A stretch of DNA of 64,000 bases from NCBI GenBank assembly GCA_021323595.1, contig JAJPKR010000014.1, positions 124,001 to 188,000 of the forward strand, read 5' to 3'. A program made the position numbers and the translations under genes. Shown here in pieces: positions 3,706 through 52,087 of this stretch (its first letter is position 1; the number at the start of each line of letters is the position of its first letter). The notes under the pieces were generated by a model, which saw only the letters and a list, made by a program, of their open reading frames with translations, was not told the origin of the DNA and did not search any database. The stretch is from Terriglobia bacterium (GTDB taxonomy: Bacteria; Acidobacteriota; Terriglobia; Terriglobales; SCQP01).

Positions 3706-4218
3706 TTAGGTGATCGGCAGCGGCGAAGTAAAGATCTCCACCTGCCCGTTCATCACGCGCACCGGATAGCGGGTGAGTGGCCGCGGCGGCGGACCGGAAG
3801 CCACGGTGCCGTCGGCGTAGAACACGCCGCCATGGCAGGGGCACATGAACAGATTGGCGCCGGGCAGCCAGCGCACCGGGCAGCCCAGGTGCGTGCAATC
3901 GACCGAGAAGGCGATGAACTCGGTTTCGCTGGAGCGGCGCAGCCAGGCCGCGGTGTTCGCGGTCACGCCCGCCCAGGGCAGCGGCGAGGGATCTTGAAAG
4001 GCGACCTTGGTGGTGCTGCCGACGCGAAAGTCGCCGACATTGCCCACGGCGCGCCAGACCTTGGTCGGGCGGCGCAGGCCCAGCAAGAAGCCGATGCTCG
4101 GCACCGCGACCAGCAGCGCGCCGATGGCCCCGGCGGCGATGCTGAGGCGCTCGAGGAACCGCCGCCGCGGCAAATCTTCCGCGGCGGCGCAGTCAGGGCA
4201 AGGTTCGTCAGGATTCAT
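3706..4218 (-). CDS. Rieske [2Fe-2S] iron-sulphur protein
   Basis: A 170-residue Rieske subunit of the adjacent bc-type complex. Cluster-binding boxes CTHLGC and CPCHGG are intact. A twin-arginine motif (RRRFLERLS) before a single hydrophobic helix indicates Tat export with retention of an N-terminal anchor, as usual for Rieske proteins. The reading frame continues upstream, but the ATG at 4218 overlaps the narI stop by 4 bp (ATGA) and gives the correct family N-terminus. It is placed between narI and cytochrome b, linking nitrate reductase and the bc module in one transcript. Confidence 0.95.
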   Translation of the reverse strand: MNPDEPCPDCAAAEDLPRRRFLERLSIAAGAIGALLVAVPSIGFLLGLRRPTKVWRAVGNVGDFRVGSTTKVAFQDPSPLPWAGVTANTAAWLRRSSETEFIAFSVDCTHLGCPVRWLPGANLFMCPCHGGVFYADGTVASGPPPRPLTRYPVRVMNGQVEIFTSPLPIT

Positions 4219-50498: not shown

Positions 50499-50960
50499 CT
50501 AGCTTCGCACCGGGATCGTGAACTGCTTGCCCTTTTCGGCCACCTGAAAGATGAGCAGCTTGGCCGGCCGCGTCGCGCTCAGGTTGCGCATCATGCGGTG
50601 AACGTGCATGGCGGGTTCGTAGAAATAGTCGCCGGCGCGATAGGTCCGCGGCGGATTCGGATCGACTTGATTCTCGATCTCGCCTTCCAAAATGTAGGCG
50701 AAGACCGGGCCGATATGCTCGTGCGGCCGCGAACTCGCTCCCGGCGCCATCGTCAGCGTGATCACGCTCACTTCGGGGTTGGGAATCGCGCCGAGCGGCT
50801 CCTGCATGAGCGTCCGAATGCCGGCGCCGCGGCGCGGGGCGGCTCTTTGCCCGCCCGCCGCCGAAGGTGCCAGCGCCCCGGCCGCGACCGCCGCCGGACC
50901 GCTCGCGAAGAGCGCCGCCACCGCCGCCGCCAGCCCGCCATTCATTTCCCGCCGTGTCAT
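50499..50960 (-). CDS. Exported cupin-domain protein
   Basis: A 153-residue protein with an N-terminal Tat-like signal (MTRREMNGGLAAAVAALFA) and one cupin barrel. Metal-binding box 1 is PHEHIGPVFAYILEGEIE and box 2 is HVHRMMRN. Function unknown; small exported cupins often bind a metal and a sugar or phenolic ligand. Start ATG 50960; the longer frame upstream has no cupin similarity. Confidence 0.82.
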   Translation of the reverse strand: MTRREMNGGLAAAVAALFASGPAAVAAGALAPSAAGGQRAAPRRGAGIRTLMQEPLGAIPNPEVSVITLTMAPGASSRPHEHIGPVFAYILEGEIENQVDPNPPRTYRAGDYFYEPAMHVHRMMRNLSATRPAKLLIFQVAEKGKQFTIPVRS

Positions 50961-51028: not shown

Positions 51029-52087
51029 TCAACGGCTGCGCCGCGGCGCATACAACTCCGTGCGCGGATGAAACTCCGACCAGGCGAACCAAAACTCCGG
51101 CTCCAAGATCACGCGCCGGAGATGCATGCCCTTGAGCCTGCCCGCGAGGCACGCGCCATAGGCGTCCCAGGTCGAGCGAGTCTCCAGGTCCATCAATCGG
51201 TCCGCCGCCGCATCCGCGGCGCGGAAGCGCAAGCGCTTGCCGCGCGCCTCGGCGACGAAGGCGGTGGTCGTGTCCGAAGCCGGCTGGTGCACGATGACCA
51301 GCGGTTCGCCGCCCACGCGATCGTTGACCACGCGCGCCGCATCGAGCGCGGCCACGGAATATGCCTTCGCCTCGCCCGCGATTTCCAGCCCCACGATCGT
51401 GTCGCGCGGCCGCAGGCGGTCGTCATGGCCGAAGGCGCCCCGCGGCGCCGGCCCCGCTCGTCCGACGATGCCTTGCCGCAGGAGGGCGTTCATCGCCGCC
51501 AGCCGCGCCGCGTAGCCCGGCAGCGGCTTGAGCACCAGCGTCGCAGGATGCAGCTTGCGCCACTCGCCCCACGTGGTCAGCAGGAAGGGATAGATCGTCA
51601 GGTGCGCGCCCTTGAGCGGTCCCGCGATCGCCGCCGCGCTCGACTGCTGCCAGCGGCTGCCCGTCTCGCGATCGCGGAACACTTCATTGCCGCCGATGAT
51701 GCCAACGGTGTCGAAGCGCAGCTCGTGACCTTTGGCCGCGGCCCTGAACACGAGGGCCGTATTGCAATACGATCACCAGGTGACGGCGATCGGTCCATCG
51801 GGCATGCGGTCCTGCACCACGCCGTGCTGCGCCAAGATCGCCGCCGGATAAGCCTTCGCGACCCCGTCCGCGTTTACCCCGATCAGCAGGTCGCCGGGGT
51901 GGAGAAACGCCGCTTGCGCGGCGGGGAGAAACTGCGGATGGTCGATCGTGGTGTAGGGCAGCGCGGGCCGGCGCTGGGATTGGGCGCGCGCCGCGCTCGC
52001 CGCCACCACCACCGCTGCGGCAAGCGCCATCGCGGCCATCGTTTTCGCCGCCGCGATCTTGGCCGCCATTTTGGGCCGATCCGTCAT
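51029..52087 (-). CDS. DUF3179 protein read through an in-frame TGA: candidate selenoprotein (UxxC)
   Basis: A 352-residue exported protein if TGA at 51773-51775 is read as residue 105. Signal peptide runs to about residue 36 (MALAAAVVVAASAARA). DUF3179 core: GDLLIGVNADGVAKAYP, then VTW-U105-S-Y-C108-NTALVF, WQQSSAAAIAGPLKGA, GLEIAGEAKAYSV, VNDRVGGEPLVIVHQP, STWDAYGACLAGRLKG. The same frame continues on both sides and there is no other lesion. DUF3179 proteins normally have Cys at this spot (VTYCPLC-like), so TGA makes UxxC. A SECIS-like hairpin follows. Alternative: a nonsense pseudogene with a 104-residue product ending at 51773. It lies 54 bp after lpxB and has a possible own -10 (TATCGT) 19 nt before the ATG. 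Confidence 0.75.
51739..51759 (-). promoter_or_regulatory. Bacterial SECIS-like hairpin
   Basis: Read on the minus strand, 13 nt after the TGA: stem CGGCCCT / AGGGCCG (7 perfect pairs) around the 7-nt loop CGTGTTC. The loop begins 20 nt after the TGA and its second base is G, followed by U. This fits the known general rules for bacterial SECIS elements (G in the first two loop bases; loop about 16-37 nt from the UGA). Confidence 0.65.

Follow-up and report, generated by a model that had tools for sequence, protein, structure and literature searches.

An in-frame TGA in a DUF3179 gene of a Terriglobia bacterium almost certainly encodes selenocysteine

The locus

The minus strand of the window (the whole stretch of 64,000 nucleotides that was analysed) carries a DUF3179 gene that the ordinary code splits into two open reading frames at an internal TGA, together with a small cupin gene that adjoins it downstream. 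The features of the locus are as follows:

51029 to 52087, minus strand: DUF3179 gene, almost certainly for a selenoprotein; 352 codons, ATG at 52087, stop codon TGA at 51031-51029
51962 to 52087, minus strand: N-terminal segment, residues 1 to about 42, containing a hydrophobic run; a signal peptide as judged by eye, with low pLDDT
51530 to 51907, minus strand: first repeat (residues 61-186), which bears U105 and C108; predicted Rieske-like fold
51773 to 51775, minus strand: TGA codon 105, almost certainly selenocysteine; 82 TGA and 45 Cys in this column among 127 genes
51764 to 51766, minus strand: codon of Cys108, second residue of the UxxC motif
51739 to 51759, minus strand: probable SECIS hairpin; 7-bp stem CGGCCCT/AGGGCCG, loop CGTGTTC with G in second place
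51053 to 51418, minus strand: second repeat (residues 224-345); predicted Rieske-like fold, no Cys or Sec at the matching place
50499 to 50960, minus strand: downstream cupin_2 gene (MTRREMNGG...), small, with an exported-looking product; neighbour of the DUF3179 subgroup

An earlier, sequence-only reading of this stretch had assigned both halves of the split frame to DUF3179 and had placed the single TGA at the first Cys of a C-x-x-C of which the downstream Cys is kept. All of this is confirmed: the TGA, at 51775-51773 on the minus strand, is the only internal one in the frame and stands in the motif VTW-U105-SY-C108-NTALVF, and the read-through product gives one PF11376 match over residues 48-343 (221.8 bits, E=1.6e-65, with a curated cut-off of 27 bits), which makes it a member of the DUF3179 family. 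When the genome was searched with the profile in six frames, a single DUF3179 match likewise ran across the TGA. As the PF11376 match is continuous, the two halves around the TGA are one domain. No NCBIfam model matches the protein and no solved structure is related to it by sequence. The protein looks exported, as judged by eye from its N-terminus and from those of the relatives that were inspected.

The TGA and Cys column among relatives

DUF3179 genes were gathered from the same order, from the phylum (Acidobacteriota) and from named genomes. In the 127 genes of Acidobacteriota that were scored (one further row was left out as a misalignment), the column of codon 105 holds either TGA (82 genes) or Cys (45 genes) and nothing else, and varied stops or frameshift lesions do not occur among the relatives. 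The stop-containing DUF3179 matches of the profile searches have exactly one stop each, always TGA, and any other in-frame TGA of the extracted frames is located at or past the end of the domain match. Within the subgroup of this gene, nine sequences have TGA, which adds eight further genomes to the one studied, and one member (L051) has Cys; the nearest named relative is 'Acidobacteria bacterium isolate 19' (69% identity) and the others are Acidiferrales, Terriglobia and Bryobacterales MAGs, from which the window is assigned to the Acidobacteriota. Judged from substitution rates, purifying selection is acting on both sides of the TGA, as dN/dS in seven comparisons is 0.07-0.31 before it and 0.15-0.35 after it, values that are rough because dS is saturated.

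The distribution of the two forms follows that of SelB. In the same order, the SelB C-terminal domain was found in 19 of 19 genomes with the TGA form versus none of the 15 with Cys only, and in the phylum sample it was found in 39 of 43 further TGA genomes; three of the remaining four have a SelB above the cut-off of the full-length model, and the last is a genome 75% complete in which SelA fragments are present. The 15 Cys genes of the order form one clade nested within the Sec genes, so that few independent events are involved and it would be wrong to count the SelB contrast as 34 independent cases. This order-level pattern is one Sec-to-Cys change, probably tied to the absence of SelB; the SelB-less clade has the Cys form only. 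The whole DUF3179 tree requires no fewer than seven switches between Cys and Sec.

The probable SECIS hairpin

The hairpin begins 13 nt past the TGA and has a perfect 7-bp stem and a 7-nt loop of which the second base is G, as described in the sequence-only reading; the distance of 20 nt given there between this G and the UGA has to be corrected, the loop G being the 22nd nucleotide after the TGA, with 21 nt between. Rfam gives no match within 51600-51900. The fold energy of this single hairpin is unremarkable (z = -1.9 and -1.1 against shuffles, at two sizes) and the case must therefore rest on comparison with relatives, for which three sets of Sec genes are available.

The codons that make up stem and loop (ACR GCC CTC GTG TTY AGG GCY) are nearly fixed synonymously among the nine close relatives with Sec, even AGG being kept for Arg, while the neighbouring codons drift. 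Both sides of one stem pair are changed in L049, from G-C to A-U; as a single event, and with the covariation of the subgroup equalled in 57 of 500 shuffles, this is supporting and not decisive. The stem is absent from the Cys member L051. The second DUF3179 type keeps CAC ACC GGT CTG GTG TGG in 32 of its 33 Sec genes, and the same wobble positions vary in its 15 Cys genes. The third set, 32 more distant Sec genes with another register, has 98.7% of cells paired, a percentage that is inflated because the genes were selected for six or more pairs in this register; the selection does not inflate the double compensatory changes, which occur in seven of seven stem pairs, and none of 500 shuffles was as good by any measure.

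We also counted Watson-Crick stems of at least six pairs with an early loop G, using synonymous resampling as a control. Such stems were observed in 66 of 82 Sec genes where 12.8 are expected and in one of 45 Cys genes where 5.2 are expected, and as the resampling keeps the peptide, the stems are not explained by coding alone. The DUF3179 genes offer bacterial SECIS elements of several registers that covary well.

Selenocysteine machinery and decoding of the TGA

The source genome, a draft of 3.55 Mb in 65 contigs (98% complete), contains all four of the genes selA, selB, selC and selD for which the sequence-only reading had proposed a search: SelA (E=3.5e-129), the SelB C-terminal domain within a frame of 653 codons (E=1.6e-17), a tRNA-Sec with anticodon UCA, and SelD (E=4e-105). 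The SelD gene (L013, G000:C5, around 1531) carries an in-frame TGA of its own, in the motif AG-U-ASK, at the position that is catalytic in other SelD proteins. A strong hairpin accompanies it (z -2.5 and -3.7) and SelD itself looks like a selenoprotein.

Set against criteria for bacterial selenoproteins taken from PMC1088965, the DUF3179 gene has a TGA that recurs in different sequences (two or more are asked for; the subgroup has 9 and the phylum sample 82), Cys homologues (45), a downstream hairpin with G in its small apical loop, and selA, selB, selC and selD in the genome. The TGA at 51775-51773 almost certainly encodes selenocysteine, and the proposal that Sec105 is genuine is supported by the machinery, the column counts, the co-occurrence with SelB, the conservation of the hairpin and the selection on the gene. 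We consider it very likely, from these comparisons of sequences, that SelB and tRNA-Sec decode UGA 105 as Sec in an exported-looking DUF3179 protein, guided by the hairpin 13 nt downstream. The same evidence supports the view that the whole protein would be made only with Sec insertion.

Three other readings of the TGA were weighed. Two polypeptides could be produced by a stop at the TGA and a restart at the in-frame GTG at 51751, and this is most improbable, because the codons from the TGA to this GTG, Cys108 included, are conserved as protein, the split would part two strands of a hairpin inside one predicted domain, the Cys relatives are single chains and the hairpin is kept in the TGA forms only. 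A single in-frame stop in a draft of 65 contigs is often a pseudogene or a sequencing error; here, however, the TGA is shared with eight more genomes in the subgroup and found in 82 genes in total, another DUF3179 gene in this genome also has one, purifying selection persists downstream, and the column counts refute random stops, errors and pseudogenes, so that a real stop at this place can practically be discarded. A changed genetic code in which TGA means another amino acid has nothing in its favour but the open frame and is hardly conceivable in view of the gene's own terminal TGA, the restriction of TGA to the Cys column within the domain and the complete Sec machinery of the genome. Reading the gene as one chain with Sec105 would give a large phylum back a complete protein that looks exported.

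Predicted fold

The protein contains an internal duplication, its two repeats matching each other with E=1.8e-29. AlphaFold2, run with eight sequences, gave a pLDDT of 76 for the whole protein, and 91.5 with a pTM of 0.86 for the first repeat alone. The VIA-align matches listed for the models of both repeats are Rieske-type chains (best Z 9.8 for the second repeat and 8.5 for the first); Foldseek gave weak best E values of 0.02-0.04, and hhalign against Rieske sequences gave no profile support (probability at most 7%). The predicted likeness would be a resemblance of fold, which extends to the cluster-less NirD, and not membership of the family: the CxH and CxxH cluster ligands of Rieske proteins are absent from the DUF3179 sequence and its Sec/Cys hairpin does not match the cluster loops. 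For DUF3179 this is the first indication of a fold, and we know of no tie between the Rieske fold and selenocysteine catalysis.

The spacings between His88, residue 105 and Cys108 (17 and 3) are the same as in a Rieske ferredoxin. For this reason the three residues were considered as Rieske ligands, and the idea was dropped, as structural ranges and a weak profile alignment put Sec105 outside the cluster loops.

A proposed redox role for Sec105

In selenoprotein families, a column where Sec and Cys replace each other is known to mark a redox Cys. We infer, with somewhat more confidence than doubt, that the redox step takes place at Sec105 in a thiol/selenol enzyme of the cell envelope. The Sec105 selenolate would be the catalytic residue, to be oxidised by a substrate such as a peroxide, a disulfide or a sulfoxide; the oxidised Sec105 would form a selenylsulfide with Cys108, and a thiol donor from outside would reset the pair. 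The UxxC motif and presumed redox function are shared with selenoproteins of the thioredoxin fold, whereas the predicted fold of DUF3179 is mostly beta and not thioredoxin-like. In the literature searched, which covered few subscription papers, no biochemical function was found for any DUF3179 protein.

The second Cys of the motif is kept in all 45 Cys forms versus 53 of the 82 Sec forms, those without it having mostly Ala (13) or Thr (8), other residues being rare. The redox pair of U105 and C108 proposed in the sequence-only reading suits this gene. In the family as a whole, however, the second Cys can be dispensed with where the first residue is Sec, and the pair is therefore not the essential unit. 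The difference fits a mechanism in which a Cys nucleophile would need an internal resolving Cys and Sec could use outside thiols, and DUF3179 is in this respect a natural experiment on the benefit of selenocysteine, the partner Cys being always present in Cys forms and often dropped in Sec forms. Motifs of Sec forms that have lost it are UPLA, UPLT, UPLV, UPLS, UPSE, UPAI and UPLK (for example L062, L066, L067, L089, L111-L127 and L131-L133). Other strongly kept residues are Asp139 (in all), Trp146, Gly156, Gly160 and His88 (87%; in 45 of 45 Cys forms and 66 Sec forms).

Sec105 could instead serve as a metal ligand, perhaps together with His88 and Cys108, and not as a redox nucleophile, in keeping with the conservation of His88, the HxH-type motif of the neighbouring cupin and the Rieske-like predicted fold. 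We find this unlikely: the alignment of folds places Sec105 off the Rieske cluster loops, and the loss of Cys108 in 29 of the 82 Sec forms, unusual for a ligand, argues against both residues being fixed metal ligands.

For a redox enzyme with Sec105 as nucleophile, the conserved neighbour is a candidate partner. The cupin gene adjoins the DUF3179 gene in 10 of 10 loci of the subgroup, mostly downstream in the same direction and convergent in L145 and L050; the Cys member L051 has one cupin upstream and a second downstream. From this arrangement, the chances appear even that the two proteins act together. It is possible, though doubtful, that DUF3179 proteins are tandem, cluster-less Rieske-fold selenoenzymes of the envelope, paired with an exported cupin, in which Sec would free the enzyme from the resolving Cys and the loss of SelB would force a strict CxxC.

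Relation to known DUF3179 selenoproteins

Two reviews already count DUF3179 (PF11376), with a UxxC/T motif, among the selenoprotein families (PMC9312934, PMC13188914), both crediting Zhang and Gladyshev 2007 and the symbiont of Olavius algarvensis; the sequence-only reading had not mentioned this, and it limits the novelty of the present case. The listed proteins and this one share the Pfam family, Sec as the first residue of UxxC/T and insertion of the bacterial SECIS type; this gene differs in belonging to the Acidobacteriota and in having WUSYC as its motif, a SECIS register of its own (13-nt spacer, 7-nt loop) and a cupin neighbour. Whereas the reviews give UxxC/T, the second Cys of Sec forms in Acidobacteriota can also be replaced by A, V, S, E, I or K. 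What seems to be new is the wide use of Sec in DUF3179 of Acidobacteriota with a SelB-less Cys clade nested among the Sec forms, the second Cys being strict in Cys forms versus loose in Sec forms, the conserved exported-looking cupin neighbour and the predicted two-domain Rieske-like fold without cluster ligands.

Other DUF3179 genes and neighbourhoods

The second DUF3179 gene of the genome (L002, G000:C18, minus strand) has one TGA at 2292-2290 in the motif TY-U-TLC-HTGLVW and a hairpin CCACACC-GGTCT-GGTGTGG; its subtype, YUTLCHTGLVW, differs from that of the main gene. A crude scan around DUF3179 genes of the YUTLCHTG type gave no neighbour common to more than a group of close genomes. No DUF3179 relatives were found on viral contigs, and the best relatives on plasmids, most of them haloarchaeal, share about 30% identity and are uninformative on function. 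Elsewhere in the window, at 3763-3948 on the minus strand, lies a true Rieske domain (PF00355, E=4.6e-9) that is unrelated to the DUF3179 gene. On the plasmid NZ_CP133216.1 of Thiothrix subterranea (L180), a DUF3179 gene annotated with Cys stands beside genes for a thioredoxin-domain protein, a DUF4395 protein and a GDCCVxC (seleno)protein.
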